Shown here piece by piece: positions 16,145-42,332 of a stretch of 60,680 bases of DNA; position 1 is the stretch's first letter; the number at the start of each line of letters is the position of its first letter. The notes beneath the pieces were generated by a model, which ran no database searches, was not told where the DNA came from, and saw only the letters and a program-made list of their open reading frames with translations. The stretch lies in contig QUFP01000026.1 of assembly GCA_003478935.1 (NCBI GenBank), positions 1-60,680 of the forward strand, written 5' to 3'. The position numbers and the translations under genes were made by a program. The DNA comes from Firmicutes bacterium AF25-13AC (GTDB lineage Bacteria > Bacillota > Clostridia > Lachnospirales > Lachnospiraceae).

Positions 16145-17188
16145 TTAATATTTTCCTACTGTCTTTCCTGTCTGGTCAAACAAAAGGATCTGGTTGTCAC
16201 GAATAGTTACACAAAATTCAGTGCCGACACTAACCTGCATATCGGAATGAACTAACACGCGAAGTTCTTCTTTTGCAAGTGCTACGCGAAGCTGTAACTC
16301 TCTTCCTGTCATGCGCACATGAGTTGCCTTAACTAAAATACCGTTTTCTGATACATTAAAGGCCTCTGGACGAACACCAGCCTTGTAGTTGCCATCAGCT
16401 GCCTTGCAGCCCTCACGAAGAACGACATCACCACACATAATCTTTCCGCCCTTAACAGTTACATCAAAGATATTGATCTGCGGAGTACCAAGAAACTGTG
16501 CAACAAACAAATTACCCGGATTTAAGTACATCTTCTGCGGTACCTCAAACTGCTGTACAACGCCCTTTTCCATAACTGCAATACGGTCAGATATACTCAT
16601 CGCCTCTTCCTGATCGTGAGTTACAAAAATTGTGGTGATACCAACCTCCTGCTGGATGCGGCGAATCTCTTCACGTGTCTCAACACGAAGTTTTGCATCA
16701 AGATTTGAGAGTGGCTCATCTAAAAGTAGTACCTCTGGCTTCTTTACAAGTGCTCTTGCAATTGCAACACGCTGCTGCTGACCACCTGAAAGAGCCTTAG
16801 GCTTTCTGTCCATCAGATGATCAAGCTGTACAAGCTTTGCCATCTCCTGGGCACGCTCTCTTGCCTCTGCTTTAGGAACCTTACGGTTAATTAACGGGAA
16901 CATGATGTTGTCCGCAACAGTCATATGCGGATACAGTGCATAGTTCTGGAATACAAGGCCGATCTCACGATCCTCAGGTGCAACCTTTGTTACATCTTTT
17001 CCTCCAAAATAAATGTGTCCAGAAGTCGGATCATTCAAACCAGCAAGCATGAATAGTGTGGTGGATTTTCCACAGCCAGATGGTCCGAGCAGACCAACCA
17101 ACTCACCATCTGCAATGTTCAAGTTCATGTTGTCAACAGCTTTGAAGTCTCCATATGCCTTCGTCAGATTCTCAATTTTAATCTCCAT
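16145..17188 (-). CDS. ugpC: ABC importer ATP-binding protein (UgpC/MsmX type)
   Basis: 347-residue ATPase that powers the importer. Walker A GPSGCGKST (about 35-43), Q-loop FQNYALYPHMTV, signature LSGGQQQR, Walker B LLLDEPLSNLD, and the switch histidine in FVTHDQEEA. The last ~110 residues form a TOBE domain, as in MalK/UgpC/MsmX. ATG follows GAGGTAAGA. It is the only importer ATPase in the window, while the two LplBC-type importers lack one; MsmX-type ATPases commonly serve several importers, so this protein might energise those too (inference). It is first in the operon, with a leader of about 170 bp upstream containing TATAAT-like sequences. Confidence 0.95.
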   Translation of the reverse strand: MEIKIENLTKAYGDFKAVDNMNLNIADGELVGLLGPSGCGKSTTLFMLAGLNDPTSGHIYFGGKDVTKVAPEDREIGLVFQNYALYPHMTVADNIMFPLINRKVPKAEARERAQEMAKLVQLDHLMDRKPKALSGGQQQRVAIARALVKKPEVLLLDEPLSNLDAKLRVETREEIRRIQQEVGITTIFVTHDQEEAMSISDRIAVMEKGVVQQFEVPQKMYLNPGNLFVAQFLGTPQINIFDVTVKGGKIMCGDVVLREGCKAADGNYKAGVRPEAFNVSENGILVKATHVRMTGRELQLRVALAKEELRVLVHSDMQVSVGTEFCVTIRDNQILLFDQTGKTVGKY

Positions 17189-17358
17189 TCTTACCTCAAT
17201 CTGCTGCCAGCGCAGCTTTTACCTACAGTTTTCGTGCCATATGCACGTTTTTTAACTTTCTCGTCTATAAATTATAATATATCTTTTGCAAAAAATCTAG
17301 TGGTATCCTATAGTTTTCGCTGTATTTTGAGTAAATTTTACTTTACAAGTTCATAATT

Positions 17359-18294
17359 TCATGCTTGCAAATATGCTTCAATTTTTTCTTTATTAAGCCC
17401 CTCTCCTATCGCGATAATGATCTGCTGACCATTTGCGATTGGATTTAGCTGGCGCTGTGCGGCAGTTGCATTTAATTCAAACCAACCATCTGGTGTCTCA
17501 AGAAAGCCCTTGATACGATGCACATGACCACAGGATGGATCGCCCAAAATTTGAGTTGCTGCATTCAAAATTTGTTCCTTTGTTAATGGCAGATTCATAA
17601 ATGAAAGTGAGGAAAATGATTTATCATCTTCGACATCACGCTTTTGCCAGCTCTCGGTGTGGTAGCCACATGTTAAAATACGATTCCAGTCATCGTTTGT
17701 AAGCTCATCCCATTTCTTCTTCATAACATCTTCTTCTGACAATTTTCTTGTACAAGAAATAGCTTCCATTGCGCGGTTTATATGCGGCAGAATAGTATCT
17801 GACTGTTCTTTTGATGATTCATCAAGCTTGCTTACAAAAACAAGACCTGCATCTGCTGCTTCTGATCCTAGAAGATACTCGGCATCCTTTGACATCTGCT
17901 CTGGCAGTCCTGCATCGGCAATCGCGATAACATTTCCTATCTCATACCATTTATCAAGCGGATCTTCTCTCAGTGCATCAAAAAACTCGTCCACATCAAA
18001 TATACCTGACGGTTCCACAATCACACGGTCATAGCCGCACATCCCCATCGCAATCAACTTTGTCTTTAAACGTCTGCGGTGGCAATCCTTATCGCAGCCG
18101 CCAGAAACCATTTCAAGTTCACATTGATCCCCCATCAGATCCTGTAAAAGCATCATATCTACATTGACAGCACCATAATCATTTTCCAAAATTCCAATGT
18201 TTTTACCGCTGTCAATCAAATATTTTGCATACTTCTTTATGAAAGTAGTCTTTCCTGAACCAAGAAAGCCTGTAATCAAATCAATTTTAACCAT
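17359..18294 (-). CDS. COG0523 (CobW/YeiR-type) GTP-binding protein
   Basis: 311-residue G3E-family GTPase, probably a metal chaperone or metal-enzyme maturation factor. The P-loop GFLGSGKTT is at 9-17. The usual CxCC metal motif is replaced by GGCDKDC (Cys67, Cys71). Switch region VIVEPSGIFDVDEF follows, and the guanine-specificity motif appears as SKLDE (VFVSKLDESS). The C-terminal domain is short. AAGGAGG precedes ATG 18294. It is divergent from the SdpR-like gene. The metal is not predictable from sequence. Confidence 0.9.
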   Translation of the reverse strand: MVKIDLITGFLGSGKTTFIKKYAKYLIDSGKNIGILENDYGAVNVDMMLLQDLMGDQCELEMVSGGCDKDCHRRRLKTKLIAMGMCGYDRVIVEPSGIFDVDEFFDALREDPLDKWYEIGNVIAIADAGLPEQMSKDAEYLLGSEAADAGLVFVSKLDESSKEQSDTILPHINRAMEAISCTRKLSEEDVMKKKWDELTNDDWNRILTCGYHTESWQKRDVEDDKSFSSLSFMNLPLTKEQILNAATQILGDPSCGHVHRIKGFLETPDGWFELNATAAQRQLNPIANGQQIIIAIGEGLNKEKIEAYLQA

Positions 18295-18334
18295 GGTTAG
18301 TTCCTCCTTACTTTGTGATGCACCCCTATTATAC

Positions 18335-18390
18335 TTGACTTTTGCTTGTTTGTGGTATAGAATCTATTTAAAATAATTTTTAAATAGATT
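18335..18390 (+). promoter_or_regulatory. SdpR promoter with 13-bp palindromic operator
   Basis: TTGACT (18335-18340), 17 bases, TAGAAT (18358-18363), followed at once by a perfect inverted repeat AATCTATTTAAAA / TTTTAAATAGATT with a 4-base spacer (18361-18390). The palindrome covers the -10 end and the start region, so an ArsR-type repressor bound here would block its own transcription. Confidence 0.8.
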
Positions 18391-18403
18391 TGAGGTGATA
18401 AGA

Positions 18404-18682
18404 TTGGCCGTTGCAGAAGTGCTAGATGCTCTTGCAGATAAGAATCGGCGCAATATTTTGCTAAAGTTAAAGGAAGGAAAAATCAGCTCAGGTGATCTGG
18501 CAATTGCTCTTGGCATAACGCCACAGGCACTCTCCTATCATCTGGCGAAATTAAAAAAAGCAGACTTGATCTACGAGACACGCGAAAAGAACTTTATTTA
18601 TTATGAACTTGATCTTTCGATTTTGGACGAAACGATCTTGTGGATTACTCAATTGAGAGGAGAGAAAAACAATGAAAAATAA
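18404..18682 (+). CDS. sdpR: ArsR-family autorepressor, SdpR-like
   Basis: About 92-residue winged-helix ArsR-type regulator (EVLDALADKNRRNILLKL helix 1, then GDLAIALGITPQALSYHLAKLKKADLI, the HTH). No metal-binding cysteine motif is present, as in SdpR-type autorepressors. I chose TTG 18404 because GAGG lies 8 bases upstream; GTG 18395 would overlap that site. It overlaps the following SdpI-like gene by 11 bp. In Bacillus subtilis SdpR represses sdpRI until SdpI binds toxin and sequesters it; the same gene order here suggests the same logic. Confidence 0.88.
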   Translation: MAVAEVLDALADKNRRNILLKLKEGKISSGDLAIALGITPQALSYHLAKLKKADLIYETREKNFIYYELDLSILDETILWITQLRGEKNNEK

Positions 18683-19097
18683 GAAATTACTCACGGCGCT
18701 GTATATTATTTTAATGTTTCTTCCACTGATTGCGGTTGTAGTGGCTTATCCATTCCTGCCAGATAAGATACCTGCACACTATGGAATAGACAATCAAGTT
18801 ACGCGTTGGGGAAATAAATCTGAGACTTTTATTTTTCCTATTATTACAATATTCTTTGGATTTTTTATGTATATTGCAGCCCAAAGTACCGCCGAACAAG
18901 AAAAGAAAGAAAGCGGTAGCAAAAAAAATAACAGCACGATCACTTTTATAGCCGGAATTTTAAGTATCATGGTATTTGATATTTTGACCTTCTATTTTCT
19001 CTATGCCGATTTTCACCAGGTAGAAAACCTAAATGATGTGCCATTCTCCCTCACGAAAATTTCATTTGGCATTCTCGGAATTGCCTCATCATTCTAG
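18672..19097 (+). CDS. sdpI: SdpI-like immunity membrane protein, N-terminal part (frameshifted)
   Basis: DUF1648-type domain (PFLPDKIPAHYGIDNQVTRW, about 27-46) between membrane helices at about 5-25 and 55-72, then two more helices. This matches the N-terminal half of SdpI, the membrane protein that confers immunity to the SDP peptide and signals to SdpR. The frame ends at TAG right after GILGIASSF. One extra T near 19094-19096 would continue it into the 19106-19351 frame as SFLGNIMPKLKRN, the natural sequence. Full length would be about 226 residues. Confidence 0.85.
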   Translation: MKNKKLLTALYIILMFLPLIAVVVAYPFLPDKIPAHYGIDNQVTRWGNKSETFIFPIITIFFGFFMYIAAQSTAEQEKKESGSKKNNSTITFIAGILSIMVFDILTFYFLYADFHQVENLNDVPFSLTKISFGILGIASSF

Positions 19098-19105
19098 GAA
19101 ATATC

Positions 19106-19351
19106 ATGCCGAAACTAAAGCGAAATTCCATTATCGGCCTTCGCACCCCATGGAGCATGAAAAACGTTGTCGTTTGGAAAAAAAGCCAGCGGTTCTGCGG
19201 TATTTTATTCATGTTGTCAGGTATCATCATTCTGATATTATGTTTCTTATTAGAAGGAACTTTACTAACGGTTGTTTCTCTGGTATTGTTAGTCAGTGCT
19301 GCAGTTGTAGGTGGTATTTATTCTTACTTGATAGCACAAAAAGAAGCTTGA
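19106..19351 (+). CDS. SdpI-like protein, C-terminal part
   Basis: 81 residues continuing the SdpI-like gene: MPKLKRNSIIGLRTPWSMKN is the diagnostic SdpI family motif (N..G.RTPW), then two membrane helices. The apparent ATG is internal to the natural protein; no ribosome binding site precedes it. See 18672-19097. Confidence 0.82.
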   Translation: MPKLKRNSIIGLRTPWSMKNVVVWKKSQRFCGILFMLSGIIILILCFLLEGTLLTVVSLVLLVSAAVVGGIYSYLIAQKEA

Positions 19352-19402
19352 TTGGAGCCACCGGGACAGTAAAATAGCCAGCGTACCTGTCACCGTGGGC
19401 AA

Positions 19403-19443
19403 AAGAAGCAGGAGAAAATCGTCTCGATTTTCTCCTGCTTCTT
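19403..19443. terminator. Bidirectional terminator between sdpI and aspS
   Basis: 18-bp perfect stem with the loop GTCTC (19421-19425); arms 19403-19420 and 19426-19443. It lies between convergent genes and has short T-rich tails on each strand. Confidence 0.85.
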
Positions 19444-19461
19444 AATATACAAGAAAACAAC

Positions 19462-21225
19462 TTACTCGTCTTTCTTGTCCTCTACGATTTTAATATGAAC
19501 ATCTGCCAGCTGCTTCTCGCTTACTGTAGCCGGTGCGCCCATCATAACATCCTGTGCATTCTTATTCATTGGGAATGGAATAATTTCACGAATGCTGTCC
19601 TCACCTGCAATCAGCATGATCATACGGTCAACACCTGGTGCAATTCCTGCATGCGGCGGAGCACCATAGCAGAATGCGTTATACATAGCCGGGAATTTTG
19701 CCTTTACATCTTCCTCGCCGAGACCAACTAACTGGAATGCCTTAACCATAATCTCTGGATCGTGGTTACGAACAGCGCCTGATGAAAGCTCTACGCCGTT
19801 GCAGACTAAATCATACTGGTAAGCAAGAATATCAAGCGGATTCATAGTCTCAAGTGCCTGTAAACCACCCTGCGGCATAGAGAATGGATTATGGCAGAAC
19901 TCTAATTCGCCAGACTCCTCACCGATCTCATACATCGGGAAGTCAACAACCCAGCAGAACTCATAGCAATCCTTCTTCATATAGCCTTCGAATGAAGTAC
20001 CGATTGTCTTACGGATGACACCTGCTGTCTTCTGAGCAGTCTTTAAGTCACCTGCAGACAGTGCAACGAAATCACCTGCCTTTAAGCCAAGTGCGCTCAC
20101 AACTGCATCCTTGTGATCAACAACAAACTTGGAGATTCCTCCAGTCAGCTCGCCCTTGTCATCTAAACGGAACCAATATGCCTTCTGACCGCTTACTACC
20201 TCAACATCAGCACACATCTTATCGATCTGCTTTCTGGTACCCTTGAAGTTTTCAGCAACGACTGCCTTTACCTTATTTCCTGCAAATGGACCAAAGCCAC
20301 ATTCTGCAAGCACTTCTGTAGCATCCTGAACGATCAGGCTGATACGAAGATCCGGCTTATCAGAACCATACTTGTCCATTGCCTCAAGATATGGGATTCT
20401 CTTAAACGGCGGCTTTGATGCCTCATGGTAAATACCATACTTTGCAAAGATTGGTGGAAGAACATCCTCAAGAATCTCAAATACGTCTTCCTGATCAGCA
20501 AATGCCATCTCCATATCAAGCTGATAAAACTCACCCGGAGAACGGTCTGCTCTTGCATCCTCATCACGGAAGCACGGAGCAATCTGGAAATAACGGTCAA
20601 TTCCAGAGGTCATAAGAAGCTGCTTGAACTGCTGCGGAGCCTGTGGAAGAGCATAAAACTTGCCCGGATGATTTCTTGCCGGAACAAGATAATCTCTTGC
20701 ACCCTCTGGAGAAGAACATGTAAGGATTGGTGTTGTGATTTCCATAAAATCATGACCAATCATAGAAGCACGAAGATCTGCAACAACCTTGCTTCTCAAA
20801 ACAATCTTCGACTTAACCTGCGGATTTCTCAGATCCAGATAACGATATTTCAGACGAACATTCTCATCTGCTTCCTTTGAATGGTTAATCTGGAACGGAA
20901 GCTCGTTGTAACGGCACTTTCCAAGAACTGTAAGCTTACTTGGAACTACCTCGATCTCTCCTGTTGGAAGATTTGCGTTCTTAGAACTGCGCTCTCTTAC
21001 AGTTCCAATAATTTCGATTGTAGACTCATAGTTGATAGAAGACAGCTGCTCCATGATTTCCTCTGTCTCTACTACAATCTGTGTCGTTCCGTAAAAGTCT
21101 CTCAAAATCAAAAATCCAAGATTCTTGCTGACCTTACGGAGATTTTCATACCAGCCGACAAGCTTTACTTCCTCGCCGACATTTGCCAGTCTTAACTGGC
21201 CACAATTGTGTGTACGTCCCTGCAT
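19462..21225 (-). CDS. aspS: Aspartyl-tRNA synthetase
   Basis: 587-residue class II synthetase of the bacterial type, which charges tRNA with aspartate. N-terminal anticodon-binding OB fold (about 1-105), the catalytic core with the motif 2 loop QAPQQFKQLLMTSGIDRYFQ and FRDEDARADR, the bacterial GAD insertion (about 290-405), and motif 3 GIAPGVDRMIMLIAG near the C-terminus. I chose ATG 21225 (MQGRTHNCGQ), with AAAGGATATAATACC upstream; the open frame upstream is an artefact overlapping the signal peptidase gene. It has its own promoter and no T-box-like leader. Confidence 0.96.
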   Translation of the reverse strand: MQGRTHNCGQLRLANVGEEVKLVGWYENLRKVSKNLGFLILRDFYGTTQIVVETEEIMEQLSSINYESTIEIIGTVRERSSKNANLPTGEIEVVPSKLTVLGKCRYNELPFQINHSKEADENVRLKYRYLDLRNPQVKSKIVLRSKVVADLRASMIGHDFMEITTPILTCSSPEGARDYLVPARNHPGKFYALPQAPQQFKQLLMTSGIDRYFQIAPCFRDEDARADRSPGEFYQLDMEMAFADQEDVFEILEDVLPPIFAKYGIYHEASKPPFKRIPYLEAMDKYGSDKPDLRISLIVQDATEVLAECGFGPFAGNKVKAVVAENFKGTRKQIDKMCADVEVVSGQKAYWFRLDDKGELTGGISKFVVDHKDAVVSALGLKAGDFVALSAGDLKTAQKTAGVIRKTIGTSFEGYMKKDCYEFCWVVDFPMYEIGEESGELEFCHNPFSMPQGGLQALETMNPLDILAYQYDLVCNGVELSSGAVRNHDPEIMVKAFQLVGLGEEDVKAKFPAMYNAFCYGAPPHAGIAPGVDRMIMLIAGEDSIREIIPFPMNKNAQDVMMGAPATVSEKQLADVHIKIVEDKKDE

Positions 21226-21277
21226 AGGTATTATATCCTTTCTAGACCACCTGTAGATTCTAGCTTTTTTCGTTACG

Positions 21278-21306
21278 ATTATATCATTCACGTTCTTTAA
21301 AGTCAA
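21278..21306 (-). promoter_or_regulatory. Promoter of aspS
   Basis: Minus strand TTGACT (21301-21306), 17 bases, TATAAT (21278-21283), about 53 bp upstream of the aspS start. Confidence 0.8.
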
Positions 21307-21341: not shown

Positions 21342-21950
21342 TCACTTCTTTTGTTCTCGTTCTGCCCGAAGTGCCTGAATCGCTTCTTTGACCGCTGCCT
21401 CCTCTTCCTCTTTTGCAATCGTTTTTGCAAGACGAACTGTATGGACAAGGTTTGTAATCAATATTGCTGCCAGCGGAATCAAAATGAGCGGAATAAAGAT
21501 TAACGGATTTGCTGCTAGACGCGAAAGCTTTCCAAGAAAAAGCGATGACCAAATCACTTTTCCAATCAAATAGCGTGACTGCGCATCATATAAATCTGCT
21601 GCATTATTCGCATCTCCCTTTGTCGTGTAGATGTAATTGTCTCCATCTTGGCTAATCGAAACCACGCGGTGCGTGTTGACTGCTCCCTCAAGTGCCGGAT
21701 CAGTTGAGTAAAAGGAGATCACATCTCCCTCCATGATTTCTTTTGGATCTGTTTTTTTTACTACAAGCAGTGTGTCAGTCGCATATGTTGGTTCCATACT
21801 TCCTGTCGTGATACGAAGCATTGTAAAGCCAAAAATATTAGGTGGCTTTCCAGGCTCAGTAAAAAGAACCATACACAAAATTACAATTGCTGCCGCTATG
21901 ACAAGAACAGAAAGCGTATTTATGACACCGCAGATTATCTTTCTTATCAT
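21342..21950 (-). CDS. sipW: Signal peptidase I, SipW/ER type (second copy)
   Basis: 202-residue membrane peptidase. N-terminal helix (about 7-30), catalytic region with TTGSMEPT (Ser51) and NTHRVV (His94), the Ser-His arrangement of SipW and ER signal peptidases rather than the Ser-Lys dyad, and KGDANN (about 111-116). A second hydrophobic stretch (about 148-168) and a charged Glu/Ala-rich tail follow. It is the last gene of the exported-protein operon; its ATG overlaps the stop of the coiled-coil gene by one base. It differs strongly from the other copy at 25674, so the two probably divide substrates or act sequentially (inference). Confidence 0.93.
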   Translation of the reverse strand: MIRKIICGVINTLSVLVIAAAIVILCMVLFTEPGKPPNIFGFTMLRITTGSMEPTYATDTLLVVKKTDPKEIMEGDVISFYSTDPALEGAVNTHRVVSISQDGDNYIYTTKGDANNAADLYDAQSRYLIGKVIWSSLFLGKLSRLAANPLIFIPLILIPLAAILITNLVHTVRLAKTIAKEEEEAAVKEAIQALRAEREQKK

Positions 21951-23707
21951 TATTTGTTTTCATCCTCTTTCTGATCTGATTTATCATGCTCGTCATTGTC
22001 AGCATTTACAATATCAGTTGAAGTATCTGCAGCCGCTTTACGGCCTCGAAGTGCATTTACAATATAGTGTGACAGTGAGTTTGCCTTTGCTTTTTCAAGT
22101 GCTTTCTCCTTGTCAATGCGGTCTTTTTCTGCCTGCTCGAGTGCTTGTTTGAGCTTTGCCTGAAGCTCTTCTATTTTTTTAGCAGACTCAGTTTCGATGT
22201 GCTCAATGTGCTCACTTGCCTCTTTGTTGGTGCGGTCAATTGCATCATTGGACTGACTCTGAATCGACTCAATCTGCTCTTTCGACTGACTTTGAATCGA
22301 CTCGATTTGAGCTGCAGTTTCGCTTTGAATGGATTCGATTCGCTCTTTTGCCTGACGTTCAATCAAATCAATCTGGGCCTTCGACTCGCTCTTGGCAGTT
22401 TCAATCTGGGCTGCTGCCTCTTCTCTTGCCTGTGCAACCTGTCTTTCTGCCTCGCTCTGCGTGCTCTCAACCGTCTTTCTCGCCTCGTCCTTGGTTGCCT
22501 CTAGCTGCTCTTTTAGACTCTGTGCTTCACTTTTAGCTGCTTTTAATTCTACTTCAGCATTTTTCTTTGCTTCCTCAGCTTCGCTCTGGACTGCCTCGAC
22601 TGCCTGCTTTGCCTCATTCTCAGCATTGTCAATTGCAAGTCTTGCCTCGGCATCGGCTTTTTCTATTGCCGCCTGAAGCTCTTCTTTTGCTTTCTTCTCC
22701 TCGACAAGCTTTGCCTCTAGTGCATTTTTTTGCTCCTCGATCTGGGCACGCTTTTGTTCTAGCTCGTCCATCTGCTGAGTCAGTGCGTCAAGCTGCCATT
22801 CTAGATCAGATGCTGACTGCTGAAGCTCAGCAAGGCTATTTTCAAGTTCTTCTCGATTCGCTGTCTCCTCTGCTAACTTTGCCTCGGCATCAAGCTGAGC
22901 CTGTGTGACCTCCTCGATAAAGACCTTTCTCACTTCGACATCTGGGATATCACAGTTATCCACAATTTCTTCCTGAATTTTTTTGATAAACTTTGGTTTA
23001 ACTGGCCTACGTTTTTTCATTGCAATCTCGGTAAGCTTTCTAGGATCTGATTCAAGAAGACTCTTAAATATCGTGTAATTTGTAATCAAGTTGATGTACA
23101 TCTGAGTCTGATACTCTTCATCAAACTCAAGTGCCGTATCCTGCTCCTCTATGCTGTAGCCCACCTCATCGTAGCTTTCGATAAACTGCCACAGCTTGTA
23201 GCAATTTCTATAATCTGGATCCTTCATCATCAAATTTGTTCGCTGAATCGGACTTCTTACCTTCGCACAGCCATTCATAATATCGCAAAAAGAGCTGGCG
23301 CGAAGTGTTCTTGACATACGGCGCACACGGTCGATTCTCTTAAAAAGATCCATGTTGTCATTGTCATTTTCGGCAAAACTCTGGCGGTTTTTGACAGTCA
23401 TCTCAACCTTGTAGGAAATCTCTTCGTAGGCATCGTCTATTTTGCTCTCCATACACATCGTATTGCATGTCTCATCGCCTGTAGACCAGAAAATGACATC
23501 CGTTCTCTTATCAACAAATGCAAAGAGACGCTGAATCAGATGATAGACAAAACGATTCTCATACAAATCAAAGCTTTCTTCTGTTGTTACATTTAAAACC
23601 TCGTTGGCTGTATGTCGCCCTTTGCATTTGTTGTAATAACTGCGTATTCTGGCTAAGGTGACGCACACTGTCTGCTGTGATCTTCCTGGCCAATGCCACT
23701 GGAACAA
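21950..23707 (-). CDS. DUF2357-like protein with long coiled coil, main part (frameshifted)
   Basis: Real sequence begins near residue 39 (VLNVTTEESFDLYENRFVYH), which resembles the DUF2357 region of McrC-like partners of AAA ATPases. Residues before that are out of frame. An alpha-helical middle (to about 260) is followed by about 280 residues of Glu/Ala/Gln/Lys-rich coiled coil (about 264-545, with repeated IESIQSQS-type heptads), then a basic segment and an acidic tail. No PD-(D/E)xK nuclease motif is visible. The start of the gene lies in 23568-23954; two single-base insertions (near 23602-23606 and 23621-23623) join the frames as LLQQMQKGDIQPNEVLNV, giving about 668 residues. It is probably cytosolic and partners the upstream AAA ATPase. 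Confidence 0.75.
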   Translation of the reverse strand: MFQWHWPGRSQQTVCVTLARIRSYYNKCKGRHTANEVLNVTTEESFDLYENRFVYHLIQRLFAFVDKRTDVIFWSTGDETCNTMCMESKIDDAYEEISYKVEMTVKNRQSFAENDNDNMDLFKRIDRVRRMSRTLRASSFCDIMNGCAKVRSPIQRTNLMMKDPDYRNCYKLWQFIESYDEVGYSIEEQDTALEFDEEYQTQMYINLITNYTIFKSLLESDPRKLTEIAMKKRRPVKPKFIKKIQEEIVDNCDIPDVEVRKVFIEEVTQAQLDAEAKLAEETANREELENSLAELQQSASDLEWQLDALTQQMDELEQKRAQIEEQKNALEAKLVEEKKAKEELQAAIEKADAEARLAIDNAENEAKQAVEAVQSEAEEAKKNAEVELKAAKSEAQSLKEQLEATKDEARKTVESTQSEAERQVAQAREEAAAQIETAKSESKAQIDLIERQAKERIESIQSETAAQIESIQSQSKEQIESIQSQSNDAIDRTNKEASEHIEHIETESAKKIEELQAKLKQALEQAEKDRIDKEKALEKAKANSLSHYIVNALRGRKAAADTSTDIVNADNDEHDKSDQKEDENK

Positions 23708-23954
23708 CTTCTTCAGTCGTTGCGATGAAACGGCGCGGCTTATCCACGATATTAAAAATCGACGTCAGACCTTCTTCTACAACTGTAAGCCACCGTTCAT
23801 CCACCACCTTGTGAAGGACGCGATTGTTTTGACGAATCGTGTTATTTCCTGCCTGAACAATCTCAAACAGGTATTGGAAATACCTGTCATTTTCCAGAGT
23901 TCGTTCTACTTTATTCGTATATTTCGTATATAAATCATTGATCGTATTTGCCAT
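23568..23954 (-). CDS. DUF2357-like protein, N-terminal part (frameshifted)
   Basis: First about 112 residues of the coiled-coil gene: MANTINDLYTKYTNKVERTL to SVRHLSQNTQLLQQMQ are in the natural frame and the rest is out of frame. The run PRRFIATTEEVVPVALARKI, followed by a hydrophilic SVRHLSQNTQ, resembles the part of DUF2357 proteins just before the conserved ENRF segment. It starts 27 bp after the AAA ATPase ends. Confidence 0.72.
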   Translation of the reverse strand: MANTINDLYTKYTNKVERTLENDRYFQYLFEIVQAGNNTIRQNNRVLHKVVDERWLTVVEEGLTSIFNIVDKPRRFIATTEEVVPVALARKITADSVRHLSQNTQLLQQMQRATYSQRGFKCNNRRKL

Positions 23955-23981
23955 CCTGACTCCCCAAAGTTAAAAGAACTG

Positions 23982-24212
23982 TTAGTACAAATTTTGTATA
24001 CGTCTCAAGTATGCCTTACTATCCTGCATTTCAGCTTTTCCAAACAGCTTATCAATATAAGTAATCAGCCCTGTAATCTCGTCTCTTACAAATGTGACGT
24101 TCATGCTTTCAAATTTCTTAAGAACCTTACGCGCAACGATATAATCCATGCCTCCCAGCTCAGTTCCGCCGCAGGCTACATAAACTGGGATGAAATCATA
24201 AAGCTGCTTCAT
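23982..24212 (-). CDS. McrB-like AAA ATPase, C-terminal part (frameshifted)
   Basis: 76 residues that continue the AAA ATPase 24209-25348. Near 24234-24239 one missing base would give RFQLSFGNRIMKQLYDF across the junction. The segment is helical (KVLKKFESMNVTFVRDEITG) and would be the lid and tail of the ATPase. It ends 27 bp before the DUF2357-like gene. Confidence 0.72.
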   Translation of the reverse strand: MKQLYDFIPVYVACGGTELGGMDYIVARKVLKKFESMNVTFVRDEITGLITYIDKLFGKAEMQDSKAYLRRIQNLY

Positions 24213-25348
24213 AATACGGTTTCCAAAGGAAAGCTGAAACGTGTGATAAGATAATTATCGAGTTTTTGCATTTTATCCATAAGCTCATCACTAATTGGAT
24301 AATCCACCTGTGCCTTTTGAAACAGATATTCCAAATGCTCTGCCGTAACATTACAGTGCGGCTGAACTTCACACTCAAATGCATCGGCACGCTCATTTAA
24401 TTCTATTGGCATCGCACGGTCATATACCTTATCAGTAATCGTGAAGGTGGAATCATCATTATTTGCTGTTCCGATAAACCATGTAGAATCAGCCACATGA
24501 ATTTTACCGCCATCCATCTTAATTGGATCGCCATCCCATGCTGTAGGCACAAGGTCAAGCACCCACTCGTCCTTATTTGGCATTTCAAGGACAGAAAGCA
24601 TTTCAGCAAAATAATACTCAATTCGTGCCAGGTTCATCTCATCAAGCACAATAAGCGTTGGGTCTGGTCTGTAGTTCGCCTCATACAGCGCACGCAAAAA
24701 CTCAGTCTCGTTAAAACGCTTTGAAAACTCATTGAAATAACCAAGCAGCTCCGTGCGATCACGAAATGATGGCTGTACCGATACAATAGTTGACGGATTG
24801 GACAGATAACGACTAAACGAATATGGAAGACTAGTTTTACCAGTACCTGAGATACCTTCCAAAATCAGAAGCTTGCTGGCTGCCATACCTGCAACAAAAC
24901 GGCGCACAATCTCAGGTGTGTAGTAAAGTTTCATCTGGCTGGCTGCATATCGGCGGTATCCTTCTGCAAACTCCTGAAGCGAAATCTCGTTATCATATTC
25001 AGGAGGTGTAAGCGCTGCATACTTTTCATCCACAAGTGTTAATTTCGGGAAACGATGCTCAATGTTAAGCTTCGCTTCGGATAAAACAGCCTGAACAATT
25101 GGTGCTCCTGCACCACCTGCTCCTGCTGAAAGCTTTCCATGGGACTGTGCCGCTGCCGCTGCAAGCGCTGCAGTTCCTGGAAGCGGCATATTTGGATTGG
25201 CTGCGCTTGCAGCAGATGCGCTGTTTGTAACGGCATCAACTGTTGGAATCACATCATCTGTAAGCGCCGATGCACCCATATACGGAATGCGCTCAGTTCC
25301 GCCCATCGCATTAACCTTAAGTGCTAAAATGCTGTTTTTCTCATCCAT
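24209..25348 (-). CDS. McrB-like AAA+ ATPase, main part (frameshifted)
   Basis: 379 residues in frame. An Ala/Gly-rich low-complexity segment (about 41-85) precedes an AAA_5/McrB-like module: Walker A GISGTGKT (165-172), Walker B LIVLDEMN (232-239), sensor I WFIGTANND (290-298), and a DRAMPIEL arginine-containing segment (about 310-317). Such ATPases drive remodelling of a partner complex. The partner here is probably the DUF2357-like coiled-coil protein. ATG 25348 has only a poor site; the same frame stays open upstream with a coiled-coil-like sequence (DNATLYKEIGRLNKQVL), so the true start may be further up. The last residues after NYLITRF are out of frame and continue in 23982-24212. Confidence 0.85.
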   Translation of the reverse strand: MDEKNSILALKVNAMGGTERIPYMGASALTDDVIPTVDAVTNSASAASAANPNMPLPGTAALAAAAAQSHGKLSAGAGGAGAPIVQAVLSEAKLNIEHRFPKLTLVDEKYAALTPPEYDNEISLQEFAEGYRRYAASQMKLYYTPEIVRRFVAGMAASKLLILEGISGTGKTSLPYSFSRYLSNPSTIVSVQPSFRDRTELLGYFNEFSKRFNETEFLRALYEANYRPDPTLIVLDEMNLARIEYYFAEMLSVLEMPNKDEWVLDLVPTAWDGDPIKMDGGKIHVADSTWFIGTANNDDSTFTITDKVYDRAMPIELNERADAFECEVQPHCNVTAEHLEYLFQKAQVDYPISDELMDKMQKLDNYLITRFSFPLETVL

Positions 25349-25368
25349 CAGTGACAGAACCTGCTTAT

Positions 25369-25671
25369 TTAAGCGTCCAATCTCCTTGTAAAGCGTTGCA
25401 TTGTCACTCTTATCTGTTTTAGCTGATGGCGAAGAATCGCATGACGCACAATAATTACAAGAAGTAAAATTGGAATCGCAATTAAAATCAGCATTAAGAT
25501 TACAGAGAGAATTTTTCCTGTAATGCTAAGCGTTGGAAAATATGTAAAAAAGATATTAAAATACTGTACCCAGCCGGTGATAAATAACGTCAAAAAACCT
25601 GCCAGCCATGTCACAATATTGTAAACGACCTGAGACAAAACTTCATAGGCAAATTTTAAGAATTCACTCAC
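25369..25671 (-). CDS. Small membrane protein of the SipW operon
   Basis: 100 residues with two hydrophobic segments (about 17-35 and 52-75) and a basic C-terminal tail (RHQLKQIRVTMQRFTRR). I do not recognise a family. It begins 2 bases after the upstream signal peptidase and is followed at once by the AAA ATPase, so it is surely co-transcribed. It could anchor the ATPase complex to the membrane (inference only). Confidence 0.72.
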   Translation of the reverse strand: MSEFLKFAYEVLSQVVYNIVTWLAGFLTLFITGWVQYFNIFFTYFPTLSITGKILSVILMLILIAIPILLLVIIVRHAILRHQLKQIRVTMQRFTRRLDA

Positions 25672-25673
25672 AA

Positions 25674-26408
25674 TTACTCCTTCCCGCTTTTGCTCTCATC
25701 AGATACTTGCTTTGCTTTTTCAAGGTCTGCCTGCGCCTGTGCACGAATTGCCTCTGCCTCCTCACGCATACGCTTTGCCTCTGCAAGTGCCGCCTCTGCG
25801 TCCTTTGCTGCCTGCATATTTGCACTCTCCTGCTCTTTTGCAGTCTCAACTGCAATTGCCTTCTTTAAGTTAATGCTTATAGTAATCAGATGATATACCT
25901 GATAAATAAAGAACAGCAACATCGGAAGCACGATTACAATCAAGAAACCTGTACTTCCTGATAAAAAGTCCATTACTTTTCCGATCTTTGGAATACTTGT
26001 CACATATTTTCCGACAATATCACCATCGGAAATCACATGCTGATCTGCAATACCATTATTGTTATCACCGATTGTCGTATAGCTTCTTGCATCTCCTACT
26101 GCCTCAATGCTCTTGATACGGTGCGTGTTAAGTGTATATTCGTTGTTTATGATTGTGTGGAAACAGATGATATCTCCTTCCTTTAACGTCTGTGGATCGC
26201 ACTTTTTGATCACAATCAAGTCTCCAGTCTCAAATGTCGGTGCCATTGAATCAGATTTTACTACTAACGGCGTATACCCAAAGAGATTTGATACGTTCTG
26301 GTTATCCCTGGTTGCCATTGTCGTAAAAGCATAAAGCGCTGCCACCAAAATAACTGCCCACAGGATCACACTTAATAATACATTTGCTGTTCGTTTAACT
26401 GCATTCAT
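25674..26408 (-). CDS. sipW: Signal peptidase I, SipW/ER type (first copy)
   Basis: 244-residue membrane peptidase: helix at about 10-29, KSDSMAPT (Ser54), LNTHRI (His96), IGDNNN, then a second helix (about 150-175) and a Glu/Ala-rich coiled tail of about 65 residues. Ser-His chemistry as in SipW, which in Bacillus processes TasA and TapA. It follows the four exported proteins, whose AWF-type signals match SipW-class substrates, and it is the likely processing enzyme for them. The long cytoplasmic coiled tail is unusual for SipW and may contact the ATPase/coiled-coil partners. Confidence 0.93.
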   Translation of the reverse strand: MNAVKRTANVLLSVILWAVILVAALYAFTTMATRDNQNVSNLFGYTPLVVKSDSMAPTFETGDLIVIKKCDPQTLKEGDIICFHTIINNEYTLNTHRIKSIEAVGDARSYTTIGDNNNGIADQHVISDGDIVGKYVTSIPKIGKVMDFLSGSTGFLIVIVLPMLLFFIYQVYHLITISINLKKAIAVETAKEQESANMQAAKDAEAALAEAKRMREEAEAIRAQAQADLEKAKQVSDESKSGKE

Positions 26409-26455
26409 TTTCTTTTTTGTCCTCTCATTTTTGTTGCTTCGTAATGTTAATTAGC

Positions 26456-26472
26456 GTTCACGTGATGTGAAC
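26456..26472 (-). promoter_or_regulatory. Small stem-loop between exported protein 4 and signal peptidase
   Basis: GTTCAC-GTGAT-GTGAAC in the 68-bp spacer, the only sizeable gap inside the operon between the exported proteins and the enzymes. It has no U-run; it may tune downstream expression or mRNA stability. Confidence 0.35.
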
Positions 26473-26476
26473 TATA

Positions 26477-27274
26477 TTAATGGTCAAAGGCCTGATTCGA
26501 GGAATCTGTTCCTGTGAAACGAAGCCTAATCGCATACTCAGCCGATTTTAATTCATCTGTACATAGCGGGTCTGTTCCTTCTAACCAGATATGTACCAAA
26601 ACTGCCTTATCCTCACCTTCATTAAGCGAAAACATGGCATTATTTTCATTTAATATCATTTGTTCTGACGGCAATAGACCAAAGGTTCTTGCAGACGTTG
26701 TCTTTGTCATCGTATCACCTAATCCCGGATCATACACATAACATATACCGTCAGCCTCAAATGAAATACGCATTGCCTCAGAAAGCGATGATGTATCTGA
26801 CAAAATTTCAGTTCCGTCTCTGATGTTTTTCGAACTGTCTGCACTCGTCAAATGTACTATCATATCCTTCGCTGCCATAAAGTGAAGCGTAAACTCCAGA
26901 TATGCACCGCTTTTTGCTGACGCAGCCGCCCCGTTTTCAAAAGTAAAGCTGCGCTGATCAATCGTCGTAACAGGTTCTAGCGGTACTTCCTTCATTGAAA
27001 AACCCTTTTCCTTTTGAATGCGCGATGCAATCTCTTCAAATGACAGCGTTTTTTTGTATGCTTCAATTGTATCATGTGCATCAAGATCCATTCTAAGATC
27101 CACACCTGATATAATATCAAGACTCATTGTGCGCACCCTCGCTCTATCTGCAATCGAAAACCATGCAACTGTCGTTGCAGTCACTGCAACAAGTGCCAAC
27201 AATAGTAACAAGATAGATGTGCGTACCCGAGAACGCATAGAGTCAGATTGTTTTTGCGAATTTCTCTCCTTCAT
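26477..27274 (-). CDS. SipW-type exported protein 4 (VAWF signal, LEGTDPLC motif)
   Basis: 265-residue exported protein. A basic N-terminus, hydrophobic helix (about 20-37) and VAWFS (36-40), the alternate signal recognised by SipW-class peptidases. Then about 200 residues predicted beta-rich, with EPVTT, a YLEFTLHF strand, EAMRISF and a C-terminal IWLEGTDPLC (about 229-238). These match motifs in the three upstream genes, so it is the most divergent member of a four-gene paralogous family. It is likely a secreted surface or fibre subunit, by analogy with TasA/camelysin (inference). Its start shares one base with the stop of the preceding gene. Confidence 0.85.
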   Translation of the reverse strand: MKERNSQKQSDSMRSRVRTSILLLLLALVAVTATTVAWFSIADRARVRTMSLDIISGVDLRMDLDAHDTIEAYKKTLSFEEIASRIQKEKGFSMKEVPLEPVTTIDQRSFTFENGAAASAKSGAYLEFTLHFMAAKDMIVHLTSADSSKNIRDGTEILSDTSSLSEAMRISFEADGICYVYDPGLGDTMTKTTSARTFGLLPSEQMILNENNAMFSLNEGEDKAVLVHIWLEGTDPLCTDELKSAEYAIRLRFTGTDSSNQAFDH

Positions 27275-28134
27275 TATCTGTCTCCTTTCCGGCCGGAAAT
27301 GCCATAAAAGGCCAGATACAAATCCGCCTCATTGTGAGTGATTGATTCAGAGCAATCTGGATCGCACCCCTCCAGGTAAAAATAAACATCAACTGTATAA
27401 ATCTGGTTTAAATTCATCACACAGAGCGGTTTTTGCGGGACACTCATATCTGATGCACTAAATGAAACCGTATAATCGGTGACTAAAACACTTGGATCTG
27501 CCACAGCCTGCACACCACTTTTATTCCATGAAAGTACCTGTCCAAAACCAAGCGTGACACCGCCGACAACTGTATTAAAAATCTGCTGTCCTGATGCGTT
27601 TTGTGACTCTGACAGACGAAGAATTACAGAGGAAGTGTAGTCGTTGTTAAAAACAAGTCCAAGTCTGGCAGCATTTAACAGCGTTCCATTTACATCTTTT
27701 CCAAGAAGACCATCTGTCTGATCAAGATAAAGAGAAAGTGTCGTGTCTGATGATAATCCCTGTGCCAGCGCACGCAGATAGATTCTTCCGTGATAATAAT
27801 ACTGCTCATCAGTGACAGGCTCAAAAGTCACCGCCATATCTGACACAGTCGATGGCGCATAGACAAAATTCGTCAAATCTGCCGTAGAGACAGGCAAAAG
27901 ATTAGTCAGTGAAGTCTGATTGACCTGCGCAATCGCAACAGGTGACGCATTGGAAAAAGTGCTGCCGTCACTGCTGATTTGAAGTTCTAAGCTCTCTTCT
28001 GCTGTGCGCGCCGATGCCCTTGTTGTTGAAACTTCCTGATTAGATGTAAACCATGCATAAGTAGCCGCAGTTAATGAAAGAAGCGCTGCGATTGCTGTGA
28101 CACACAAAAACCAATTTCGAAACGCCTGCTTCAT
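27274..28134 (-). CDS. SipW-type exported protein 3 (YAWF signal, LEGCDPDC motif)
   Basis: 286-residue exported protein. Hydrophobic helix then ATYAWFTS (24-31), the SipW-class processing region. The mature part carries LLPVST (79-84), YYHGRIYLRA, AARLGLVF and the C-terminal YLEGCDPDC (about 253-261) ending in a YLAFYG strand. The paired cysteines of the motif suggest a disulphide or metal site outside the cell. It overlaps the upstream gene by 4 bp (ATGA). Confidence 0.87.
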   Translation of the reverse strand: MKQAFRNWFLCVTAIAALLSLTAATYAWFTSNQEVSTTRASARTAEESLELQISSDGSTFSNASPVAIAQVNQTSLTNLLPVSTADLTNFVYAPSTVSDMAVTFEPVTDEQYYYHGRIYLRALAQGLSSDTTLSLYLDQTDGLLGKDVNGTLLNAARLGLVFNNDYTSSVILRLSESQNASGQQIFNTVVGGVTLGFGQVLSWNKSGVQAVADPSVLVTDYTVSFSASDMSVPQKPLCVMNLNQIYTVDVYFYLEGCDPDCSESITHNEADLYLAFYGISGRKGDR

Positions 28135-28991
28135 TTTGCTCCTCCCTTCTGTGATTCATCCACTCCAACAAACGCGAGCATAAGTCCAGCATCCTTATTT
28201 TGCACTGGATTAAAGCACTGCTCATCACATCCTTCAAGATAAAGCCAATATTCTACTGATGCCACTTCATCGGTCTCTAGCGAGACAAGAACAGATGCGC
28301 CTGCATCATATTTGTCTGAACTATTTTTATAAGCCATATATTGAGAAATCGAGGTGGATGGGTCAGACACGTAAGCAGCCTGTCCGCCTGATGATATCGA
28401 CGAAACTACAGCGGATGAAGCCGGTATTGTTGCCCTTGACTGTGCTCCTGCAACAGCTCCTAGCTCATCCAGCCAAAAAAGATATGTATTTGTACCAGAA
28501 TTCGATGTGATACGAATGCCAAGACGCATTGCAGCAAGCGCCTGTGCATCGCTTCCAACATTTAAATTTTCCGCATCAAAATACACATCACACGGTGCAT
28601 TCTCACACTTTAAGTAAACGGTTCCGTGAAGTGCATCTTCATCCACCTGACTATCCGCCGCTTCATAGAGAACAGCAATTCCGTCCTTATTTTGTGCAAT
28701 TGCATGGTAAAAATGATCCAGATCTGCTGTCGAGAGTGGCTTTAACGTGTCTGGATTCCCCTCTAGAACTAGCTCACAGCTCTTGTCAAATAGTCCCAAA
28801 CGCGACGCGGAAATCAAAAGTGACGCATCACCATTACTTATTGACCCACCCATCGGTGTTACATTCGTAGAGACCATTCCTGACAGCGTAAACCATGCAT
28901 AGACAGAGCCGCCTGCTGCACAAAAAATCAGCACAGTCAAAAATATAACAGCCCGAAGTCGTTTTTTTAATTTTTTGACATCATCATTCAT
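28131..28991 (-). CDS. SipW-type exported protein 2 (YAWF signal, LEGCDEQC motif)
   Basis: 286-residue member of the same family: helix at about 13-29, YAWFT (31-35), LKPLSTADL (PLST equivalent to PVST), GTVYLKC, AAMRLGIRI, and the C-terminal YLEGCDEQC (about 251-259) with LMLAFVG. An additional cysteine pair (CENAPC) occurs in the middle. It starts 28 bp after the first paralogue ends. Confidence 0.87.
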   Translation of the reverse strand: MNDDVKKLKKRLRAVIFLTVLIFCAAGGSVYAWFTLSGMVSTNVTPMGGSISNGDASLLISASRLGLFDKSCELVLEGNPDTLKPLSTADLDHFYHAIAQNKDGIAVLYEAADSQVDEDALHGTVYLKCENAPCDVYFDAENLNVGSDAQALAAMRLGIRITSNSGTNTYLFWLDELGAVAGAQSRATIPASSAVVSSISSGGQAAYVSDPSTSISQYMAYKNSSDKYDAGASVLVSLETDEVASVEYWLYLEGCDEQCFNPVQNKDAGLMLAFVGVDESQKGGAK

Positions 28992-29019
28992 GACCTCTCC
29001 CTTCCCTTTTGTTTAATTA

Positions 29020-29916
29020 TTAATCTGTCTTCACTCCGGCAAACGACACTGCCAAATTTCTAAGCGTTTGTCTGCAAAGATTTGAAGTACAATCTTCATC
29101 ACAGCCTTCCAGCCAAATGTAAAGCTCAATTTCAACAGATTCACCAACACTTCCATCATCAGCACCTGATATCGTACAAAGCCGCAGTGAATCATCCTTG
29201 CGCTTCACAGCACCAGTCTCTTTATTGTAGATACAATACTCATCTGATGTATATGGTGTAAATGGCACTGTTGTGCCATCCTTGCGTGAAGCATCAAGCA
29301 CATAGCCCTCCTGCCCTGTTGCCGTGTTATACTCTGCTTCTGGATTTTTTTTATCGCTTATTGAAAAGATATATTCATTATCATGTGCCTGATGCTCTCC
29401 CACTTTATGAACAACTAGTCCCAAGCGAATTGCTGAAGAAATAGGTGAAGCTTCATCACTGTCCTCAAATCCAATATCTGACAGATATATATCAAGTGTT
29501 CCTCCTGTTGTTCTTAAAAACAGACTTGTATGATAATAATCATTTTGCTCTCCATTTCCAAAAATGCTTGCTGCAAGTCCTGTTTTTGTCTGATAGCCTG
29601 ATGCAAACTCCGTCACCTTCTGAAAGCCAGCACTAATTTTATTTGTTGAGACAGGCACAAGCTGTCCTGAAAAGCTTTCTAAAACAGCTGATGAGCCATA
29701 CACGCCATTATATGCATTACTGATTTGAAGATTGACGCCTGCACCTGCCGCCATACGTACATTTGTCGTATGCTGACTTGTATTATAAATATACCAGGCA
29801 TATGTTGCAGAAACCACCGCCAGAAATGTAATCAAAAGTGCCAACAACGCCCCTGTAAATTTTCGCTTTAATCTTTTTGCCTCCACAGCATTCTCCCGCT
29901 GCTGCAATGTTTCCAT
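29020..29916 (-). CDS. SipW-type exported protein 1 (YAWY signal, LEGCDEDC motif)
   Basis: 298-residue first gene of the operon. Charged N-terminus (to about 20), helix (about 22-37), ATYAWY (37-42), then LVPVST (86-91), YYHTSLFLR, AIRLGLVV and the C-terminal WLEGCDEDC (about 268-276) followed by LAVSFAG. Longest of the four paralogues, with a third cysteine near the end (SNLCRQ). Promoter at 29961-29989. Confidence 0.88.
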   Translation of the reverse strand: METLQQRENAVEAKRLKRKFTGALLALLITFLAVVSATYAWYIYNTSQHTTNVRMAAGAGVNLQISNAYNGVYGSSAVLESFSGQLVPVSTNKISAGFQKVTEFASGYQTKTGLAASIFGNGEQNDYYHTSLFLRTTGGTLDIYLSDIGFEDSDEASPISSAIRLGLVVHKVGEHQAHDNEYIFSISDKKNPEAEYNTATGQEGYVLDASRKDGTTVPFTPYTSDEYCIYNKETGAVKRKDDSLRLCTISGADDGSVGESVEIELYIWLEGCDEDCTSNLCRQTLRNLAVSFAGVKTD

Positions 29917-29960
29917 TTACTTGGCTGACCCCCTTCAAAATCAAATTTTTTCACGGTATT

Positions 29961-29989
29961 ATGGTATCATAGCCAACTTGTTTTTTCAA
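29961..29989 (-). promoter_or_regulatory. Promoter of the SipW/AAA operon
   Basis: Minus strand TTGAAA (29984-29989), 17 bases, TACCAT (29961-29966), about 45 bp upstream of the first gene. GAAGGGGGTCAGCCAAGTAA supplies the ribosome binding site. Confidence 0.6.
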
Positions 29990-34392: not shown

Positions 34393-34535
34393 GTAACTAT
34401 TCAGAACCACATTCGCAAAATCGCATCTTCGATGCTTCTATTTTGCTCATGTGGTTACCTCGCCATATAAAATTGCTATTCTGTCTGAATGCAAGCATTC
34501 ACAGAAAGCAATTTTGCATGGCTCTGAATAGTTAC
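34393..34535. repeat. 143-bp element with 13-bp terminal inverted repeats (MITE-like)
   Basis: The ends are exact inverted repeats: GTAACTATTCAGA (34393-34405) and TCTGAATAGTTAC (34523-34535). The inside folds into two long hairpins: AACCACAT..GCAAAAT with ATTTTGC..ATGTGGTT, enclosing GCATCTTCGATGC; and AATTGCTATTCTGTCTGAATGC with GCATTCACAGAAAGCAATT (small bulges). It encodes no protein. It sits between the AraC terminator and the hisC stop. Confidence 0.82.
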
Positions 34536-41260: not shown

Positions 41261-42332
41261 AAATTTAAAATTACTTCGTGCCTGGTTCTCATTCCTTGCC
41301 CGCTATACAAGAAAGAAAAAATCACTCTGGTGTATGGCCGCTATTCTTCTTGTTATTGGCATTGCTGCGGCACAAAATGCAGACCGCCACGAAATCATCC
41401 GCATTGGATTATACTGTGCCAATCCTGATGAAATGACCGAAGCTATGCTTACTAATCTTGAATCACTTGATGATGGATTGTATCGTTTTTACCGATCTTC
41501 ATCACTAGATTACATGCAGGAAGATATTAATCTTCGAAAAGCAGAGTGCGGTTATGAATTTCCAAATGATTTAGAGTCACAGATGCAGGCTGGCAAAGAC
41601 GGATGTATCAGCGTTTACACTTCTCCTTCAACTGTTCTTACAGCTGTTGTAAACGAAGCTGTCTACAATGCAATTTTTCAAGAATATGCAAAGACAATGC
41701 TTGCTGATTTTATTGCATCTTACGATGTCGTCTCAGTAAAAACAGCGGATGAACTAAAAGCACTTGTCGATGAGCACTATGAATATGAAAAGGAAAATAC
41801 ACCAGTCTTTCATGTTGTGTATGAGGATATTCCAGAAAACTTCTATGACGATCAGGCACTATTTCAAATTCCAGTTCGCGGACTTGCCGTACTTTTTATA
41901 ATGCTGACTGCACTTGCCGGCAGCTCCCAGTTTCGCCACGACGCAAAAAAGGGACGCTTCCTTCTTCGCCGTCCAGACGAAAAATGGTTTGTCCCTTTTT
42001 TGTATAGCTATCTTCCAGCTCTGTTTCTTTCTGTTTTTGGTTTGCTTGCACTTATCATCGGCTCTGTCGCCCCAGTAAATGTAACGCTTATCGCAGAGCT
42101 TGCACTTTTGATTGTTTTTTCTGCGCTGTGTAGCATCCTCTGTACACTTTTAGGCCAGATCATAAAATCATCGCTCGCCTTTGATGCGCTGATTCCAGTG
42201 ATTTTACTATTTTGTCTTTTGTACTCTCCGGTTTTAATGGATCTTGGAGATTTCATTCCAGGGTACAAAGTTTTGTCGTGGCTTGCGCCGACGAAATGGT
42301 ATTTTACTTTACATGAAGTAATTTTAAGCTAG
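41247..42332 (+). CDS. ABC exporter permease 2 (ABC-2 type)
   Basis: 361 residues with the same layout as the preceding gene: N-terminal helix (about 28-45), external domain (about 46-205), then six helices to the end. Overlaps permease 1 by 14 bp; AAAGGAGCAAGT precedes the ATG. The two probably form a heterodimer. The gene ends inside the convergent ligase gene by 9 bp. Confidence 0.85.
   Translation: MKKNKNLKLLRAWFSFLARYTRKKKSLWCMAAILLVIGIAAAQNADRHEIIRIGLYCANPDEMTEAMLTNLESLDDGLYRFYRSSSLDYMQEDINLRKAECGYEFPNDLESQMQAGKDGCISVYTSPSTVLTAVVNEAVYNAIFQEYAKTMLADFIASYDVVSVKTADELKALVDEHYEYEKENTPVFHVVYEDIPENFYDDQALFQIPVRGLAVLFIMLTALAGSSQFRHDAKKGRFLLRRPDEKWFVPFLYSYLPALFLSVFGLLALIIGSVAPVNVTLIAELALLIVFSALCSILCTLLGQIIKSSLAFDALIPVILLFCLLYSPVLMDLGDFIPGYKVLSWLAPTKWYFTLHEVILS

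Follow-up and report, generated by a model that had tools for sequence, protein, structure and literature searches.

What might explain why a McrB-like AAA ATPase and its DUF2357 partner stand in one gene cluster with SipW-type signal peptidases and exported proteins? The cluster lies at positions 21,342 to 29,989 of the 60,680-nucleotide stretch analysed here (the window), which is contig QUFP01000026.1 of Firmicutes bacterium AF25-13AC. It is a CoCoPALM-type system, a kind named in a few sentences of the accessible text of Bell et al. 2024 (PMC11090510), so the initial annotation, made from the sequence alone, was mistaken in thinking that it looked undescribed. The answer that we favour, and hold to be reasonably probable, is that the pair forms a nuclease-less, membrane-bound motor derived from McrBC that serves the export, processing or assembly of TasA-like surface subunits.

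The McrB/DUF2357 pair is consistently linked to SipW-type peptidase and exported genes. P0001, an intact relative of the window ATPase with 563 amino acids (aa), 99% identical over the aligned part and spanning three successive window frames by tblastn, was used to scan genome contigs; 135 stretches matched, yielding 109 relatives, of which the best 80 were kept. In these best 80 of 109 loci, a set ranked by similarity and hence biased, a DUF2357 gene (79/80), an S26 peptidase gene (79/80) and a member of the exported family (76/80) lie on the same strand within 8 kb. The nearest relatives of the window locus among the genome contigs searched, at 79-80%, are in Blautia sp. MSJ-19 (L001) and a Lachnospiraceae assembly (L002). 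A survey of 397 genomes from the family of L001's genome gave 43 matches, 25 strong (E < 1e-90) and 18 weak (E 1e-8 to 1e-24), and we read L001, the loci of the other 24 strong genomes and, from all the weak genomes but G019, G303 and G384 (15 in number), 16 weak places. Peptidase and/or exported genes stand beside the ATPase in 22 of the 25 strong genomes, including L094, which ends at a contig edge and shows the exported gene only; the other three (L105-L107) have neither. Neither the peptidase nor the exported profiles, which were built from the loci themselves and so favour relatives, hit any of the 16 weak places, one of which (L114) has a DUF2357 relative. A loose signal pattern flags one open reading frame (ORF) each in weak L108, L113 and L121 and in L105 and L107; the exported profiles are silent there, and these ORFs were not counted as relatives. 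Under strict scoring (same strand, 8 kb), the DUF2357, peptidase and exported genes are each present in 20/21 of loci L084-L104.

The reverse test gave a similar result. The exported profile matches 24 of the 397 genomes, 21 of them among the 22 linked ones (all but G090). In two of the remaining three, G166 and G342, the match is confined to the N-terminal part of the model (positions 5-43 and 7-64); the third, G264, has a lone EX1-like gene without the ATPase (L124, 9543-10475), the only full-length one in the 397 genomes. The initial annotation had proposed that the ATPase pair was joined to an export and processing route, and to that extent it stands, with 22/25 strong against 0/16 weak places. 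It had also named two patterns that would speak against this link, and neither holds: the ATPase is rarely found without export genes (22/25 linked), and the exported profile is rarely found elsewhere (21/24 in linked genomes).

The linkage extends to other lineages. In the order to which the Bacilli genome with L070 belongs, 64/241 genomes match, the matching ones being 0.8-1.9 Mb in size, and among the 30 Bacilli loci read a DUF2357 gene is present in 30/30 and a peptidase gene in 29/30. In the family of Ruminococcus flavefaciens YRD2003 (L011), 13/197 genomes match, 11 strongly; nine of these strong loci have the ATPase ORF called (it was missed by the ORF caller in L191 and L197), and they hold DUF2357 in 9/9, the peptidase in 8/9 and the exported family in 8/9. 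Since the loci share descent and some are repeats (in the strong-protein set, L157 repeats L070 and L187 repeats L011), the counts are not independent events. In a phylum sample, 54/398 genomes match and only the centre genome does so strongly, and thus the system is rare outside its home groups; among 29 weak loci of that sample, read with a flank of only about 1.5 kb, none has the peptidase and nine have DUF2357 relatives. In 36 of the 80 loci, of Bacilli type (L037, L048, L058, L070 and others), two families of about 310 and 325 aa stand just upstream of the AAA gene, and one member of each, when scanned, had no Pfam match above cut-off. Many Bacilli loci end in very large genes, as does the cluster of L058, where a surface protein of 1682 aa (16260-21305) has matches to ricin-type lectins.

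Could the ATPase pair be a passenger that merely adjoins an unrelated SipW/TasA-type operon? Such operons do exist without this ATPase, as the sipW-bsaABCRSD operon of Clostridium perfringens is described in the accessible part of PMC7395162. However, the peptidase adjoins in 79/80, 20/21 and 29/30 loci across Lachnospiraceae, Ruminococcus, Christensenellaceae and Bacilli, counts on which chance linkage was rejected, and the genes often overlap, so we regard a passenger as very unlikely.

In the window the genes form a single minus-strand run from 29916 to 21342, in the order EX1, EX2, EX3, EX4, SIG1, AAA gene, DUF2357 gene and SIG2:

29961..29989, minus strand: promoter-like site ahead of EX1, a weak candidate (9/12 matches, TG before the second hexamer)
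29020..29916, minus strand: EX1, exported protein with SipW-type N-terminus, 298 aa; paralogue of EX2 and EX3, with an orthologue at L001:5618-6523
28131..28991, minus strand: EX2, exported paralogue, 286 aa (BLASTP kinship and ORF)
27274..28134, minus strand: EX3, exported paralogue, 286 aa, structure modelled
26477..27274, minus strand: EX4, more distant exported relative, 265 aa (weak BLASTP kinship)
25674..26408, minus strand: SIG1, SipW/archaeal-type signal peptidase with charged C-terminal tail, 244 aa (TIGR02228 100.2 bits; PF10502 24.9, cut-off 22.9)
23982..25671, minus strand: membrane-anchored McrB-like AAA gene, in three frames in the assembly (tblastn of P0001, aligned over 25671-23985)
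21950..23954, minus strand: DUF2357 (McrC N-terminal-like) gene with long coiled-coil-like tail, in two frames (tblastn of the L001 orthologue; DUF2357 in the orthologue; fold)
21342..21950, minus strand: SIG2, second SipW/archaeal-type signal peptidase, 202 aa (TIGR02228 83.1 bits; PF10502 23.8, cut-off 22.9)

The co-directional run and the two SipW-like peptidases of the initial annotation were both borne out, the latter above the TIGR02228 cut-off and the former with a 28 bp gap, a 4-bp overlap, a 1-bp overlap, gaps of 68 bp and 2 bp, and a 1-bp overlap before the last gene. The promoter-like pattern occurs at 33 sites in the region, compared with a mean of 18.1 after shuffling, which is no proof of an EX1 promoter. 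The AAA and DUF2357 genes that the initial annotation proposed are likewise present; its separate small protein with two transmembrane helices is not, since tblastn of P0001 places that stretch at the ATPase start. A 100-aa protein of its own at 25671-25369 was rejected because intact ATPase relatives begin with the same stretch. These relatives are mostly 563-564 aa long, with N-terminal membrane helices; among the matches listed (120 of 8000 scored) they are all 98-99% identical, and intact copies are common, because the near-identical P0093 stands on 1000 contigs. Intact copies of both the ATPase and the DUF2357 gene exist in relatives. Further window genes also appear to be split across frames (42324-43957, 9313-10850 and 57419-59571), and therefore assembly noise is the likely cause of the broken ATPase and DUF2357 frames. 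The flanks look unrelated, with a glycosidase-like gene before the run and an aspartyl-tRNA synthetase-like gene after it, both named by eye, and the Clostridiales-1 RNA (RF01699) has three matches in the window, at 2584-2753 (minus), 34398-34530 (minus) and 57189-57358 (plus). Among three pattern matches in viral contigs there were no relatives, in a scan that reaches close relatives only, and a sequence search of the PDB gave no meaningful relatives with the AAA, DUF2357 or exported queries.

How does the ATPase differ from a restriction McrB? AAA_5 scores 20.8 bits in the window frames, just below the Pfam cut-off of 22. All of the strong ATPases (139/139) carry the Walker A, Walker B, N-x-D and DR[AR] patterns. 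The pattern N-x-D-[DE]-[STA] occurs in 139/139 strong, 6/6 mid and 44/49 weak proteins, as well as in the window frame 24209-25348, and the classical NxxD[RK]S was found in none of the strong, mid or weak proteins; being common in the weak proteins, the N-x-D pattern marks a wider NxD group and not this system alone. By hydropathy, the McrB-like ATPase is a predicted membrane-anchored protein: a membrane stretch falls within the first 130 residues in 138/139 strong, 5/6 mid and 2/49 weak proteins, and the sole strong protein without one is truncated by a contig end. P0001 begins with membrane helices followed by an Ala/Gly-rich linker, with a short heptad-like stretch after the helices by eye; Pfam shows no N-terminal nucleic-acid-binding domain in it, a silence that does not exclude one.

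We built a tree from 105 AAA domains: 22 from the survey loci, 28 sampled from the remainder of the 80, 6 mid and 49 weak. In it the 50 linked ATPases fall together on a single branch (93/91; recovered in 92% of 200 bootstrap trees). Next to this branch stand the five proteins encoded in tandem in L105-L107 (100/97), followed by a protein from a Deinococcus plasmid; the deeper order is unsure, owing to several long branches. The sister loci have a membrane-anchored McrB, a DUF2357-type gene and a second McrB in tandem (L105, L106), and L107 (G190) has two ATPase matches with one ORF called. By profile match, SipW-type peptidase and exported genes are absent beside the ATPase in L105-L107, and these loci adjoin surface proteins (AgI/II_C2 33.0 bits, cut-off 27.1; transglutaminase 76.4; MBG below cut-off), which hints that the whole branch, sister loci included, serves the envelope.

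The DUF2357 partner resembles the N-terminal half of McrC. PF09823 (DUF2357) scores 39.2 bits in the intact L001 orthologue and 32.0 in L048 (cut-off 23.3), and falls below cut-off in the window's broken frames. McrC takes ranks 1-4 for the modelled protein by fold, with a match that spans Escherichia coli McrC residues 3-191 at most. Foldseek alone is indecisive: unrelated chains, kinesins among them, lead with a probability of at most 0.18, and McrC (6hz4_M) has rank 8 with 0.84. Pfam yields DUF2357 alone, and no nuclease domain, in the orthologues of L001 and L048, although a degenerate nuclease could escape it; the partner appears to have lost the McrC nuclease. Indirect signs of a coiled coil are an SMC-type match of 15.7 bits over residues 270-541 of the window frame and a tail of 300 residues in the L001 orthologue. 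In Ruminococcus loci (L006, L011, L015 and others) the DUF2357-holding ORF often reaches about 970-1035 aa through a very long tail. By contrast, the homologues in Bacilli have only 361-410 aa, end near residue 370 and leave no room for a tail. The coiled-coil tail is thus not universal, and the general cytoplasmic scaffold of coiled-coil tails that the initial annotation had proposed was rejected.

Ancestry in McrB/McrC raises the possibility that the system serves defence, as a relative of type IV restriction or abortive infection with the surface proteins as sensors or effectors. CoCoPALM is placed among McrBC systems in the accessible text of PMC11090510, P0001 matches the PADLOC candidate PDC-M26A (E 4.8e-39, 132.5 bits), with 1.6e-32 for the Deinococcus relative, and Deinococcus and Priestia plasmid relatives adjoin DUF2357 genes. 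Against this stand the lack of a Pfam nuclease domain in the DUF2357 orthologues scanned, the linked SipW-type and exported genes, the recurrence of genes related to cyclic di-GMP (c-di-GMP) and the presence of the system in 64/241 small Bacilli genomes, and we consider defence unlikely.

What, then, is exported? In EX1, EX2, EX3 and EX4 a hydrophobic N-terminal stretch is followed by YAWY, YAWF, YAWF and VAWF, respectively, and the A-W dipeptide is invariant in 52 exported sequences. The claim of four exported paralogues holds for EX1-EX3 (BLASTP, about 1e-11 to 1e-18); EX4 is a weak relative of these (about 1e-3 to 1e-4), chiefly through a C-terminal motif. TIGR04088, the SipW-dependent-type signal, scores 16.2 bits in EX3 (cut-off 19), with no match in the other three. 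For the EX3 model, the TasA fibre heads the fold list and pilus proteins come next, with modest scores; Foldseek alone is indecisive (TasA rank 2, probability 0.33). The predicted fold, at these scores, suggests that the EX proteins may be TasA-like beta-sandwich subunits. The peptidases are SipW-type by profile and not the Bacillus SipW equivalog: the archaeal/SipW-type TIGR02228 has a cut-off of 51.85, which both exceed, whereas NF046067 (Bacillus SipW) gives 98.8 and 90.3 bits, below its equivalog cut-off of 190. SIG1 and SIG2 are 32-33% identical to each other.

In Clostridia the cluster often holds c-di-GMP-related genes. Loci L084-L104 have 100 unlabelled co-directional neighbours, and among the 80 that were scanned the commonest domains are HD_5 (9), HD (8) and EAL (5), with GGDEF in 2. 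EAL-like, HD-GYP-like or PilZ genes are in the cluster at 40/101 loci (27 + 12 + 1, from 80 + 21 loci, G354 not counted). The EAL-family gene directly precedes the exported gene, peptidase and ATPase in 27/27 cases. In the first 80 loci the 22 short EAL-family proteins have neither the EAL nor the DDFG pattern, which argues that they are probably receptors rather than enzymes. HD_5 relatives occur in 12 loci; 10 of them show the HD-GYP pattern, and the gene that directly follows belongs to the exported family in 11 and is PilZ in one. In L001 and L003 a PilZ gene is the immediate neighbour of the membrane-anchored paralogue (in G354, PilZ lies about 28 kb from the ATPase). Different modules at the same place suggest convergent gating. 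The same searches found no such genes in L105-L123 or in the Bacilli loci searched, and none lies in the window. Control by a c-di-GMP riboswitch was rejected, as Rfam at the gathering score found none in the window and 17 loci (L001-L003, L005, L010, L016, L018, L021, L024, L028, L031, L038, L048, L058, L070, L084 and L085).

For a motor of surface-subunit assembly, we infer the following course. Precursors would be kept in the membrane by the SipW-type signal, the peptidases would cut after the conserved Ala (A-W/F), and the freed N-terminal strand would complete the next subunit and so build a surface fibre. The AAA ring, anchored by its N-terminal helices and switched on by the DUF2357 stalk, would provide energy at the membrane for gathering the precursors and their membrane-anchored paralogue, pushing them out or remodelling them. 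The machine may be gated, in Clostridia, by the c-di-GMP-related protein encoded beside the export genes. More tentatively, and somewhat against the odds, the system could be a distinct Gram-positive surface-fibre machine, in which the McrBC-derived AAA motor, moved to the membrane and free of its nuclease, forms a ring of membrane helices that powers and gates processing and donor-strand assembly of TasA-like subunits, the gate being a lineage-specific c-di-GMP module (degenerate EAL, HD-GYP or PilZ) on an anchored, uncut TasA-like base subunit.

Fibres of this kind may not need a motor, and this weighs against the assembly motor. TasA-type fibres are not known to require an ATPase. In addition, BsaA of C. 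perfringens made in E. coli polymerises by itself, according to the accessible part of PMC7395162. The task of the ATPase may therefore be gating, anchoring or quality control. In the main rival explanation, which we find doubtful but worth weighing, the AAA/DUF2357 pair acts in regulation or quality control: it extracts or clears uncut precursors or positions the peptidases, and the products are a family of surface adhesins displayed without a fibre. This would fit the diversity of the exported set (four in the window), the very large surface proteins nearby, as in L058, and the membrane-anchored exported paralogue without the cut motif, which is frequent among loci. It accords less well with the fold list of EX3, led by the TasA fibre and fibre- or pilus-related in rows 1-22. 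If the assembly motor is correct, gut and rumen Clostridia and small-genome Bacilli use an antiviral-type motor that has been converted to surface assembly, c-di-GMP is tied to surface fibres in Blautia and Ruminococcus, and a group listed with the McrBC restriction systems has a role other than defence or in addition to it. It would also be an energised version of the TasA/SipW route, of which we know no earlier example.

How does the system compare with those already known? In the accessible text of PMC11090510, CoCoPALM is an NxD-group McrB clade joined to a transmembrane and coiled-coil domain that resembles FtsB; signal peptidases are its neighbours, a coiled coil is usual in its McrC homologue, and its treatment is deferred to a later paper. 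A full-text literature search of partial coverage found no further account, and other uses of "cocopalm" look unrelated by title or abstract. The window locus shares the NxD McrB with N-terminal transmembrane part, the DUF2357 partner, with a tail that may be a coiled coil, and the signal-peptidase neighbours; exported TasA-like proteins, c-di-GMP genes and nuclease loss are not mentioned for CoCoPALM in that text. Our analysis adds the linkage counts, the single clade, the McrC-like partner without a found nuclease, the predicted TasA-like fold of EX3, at modest scores, and the c-di-GMP-related neighbours.

With TasA/TapA/SipW (PMC9674648) and sipW-bsaA of C. perfringens (PMC7395162), as described in the accessible parts of both, the locus has in common a SipW-type peptidase beside exported proteins with a putative SipW-type signal, and the EX3 model is predicted to be closest to the TasA fibre. 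Unlike here, no AAA/DUF2357 pair is reported in those texts, and PF12389 (TasA/camelysin) reaches only 11.1 bits, in EX2 alone, against a cut-off of 22.5. McrBC (type IV) restriction likewise has a McrB-type AAA core, a DUF2357 activator and the McrC-like fold, whereas the ATPase here is membrane-anchored by prediction, no nuclease was found and the partners are export genes. A precedent for such a move is PcdA of Staphylococcus aureus, in the accessible text of PMC10602043 a McrB-family protein that has left restriction for a cellular role. PcdA differs in having EVE domains and no McrC-type partner and in acting in cell division; by analogy with it, a McrB protein can leave restriction for the service of the cell.

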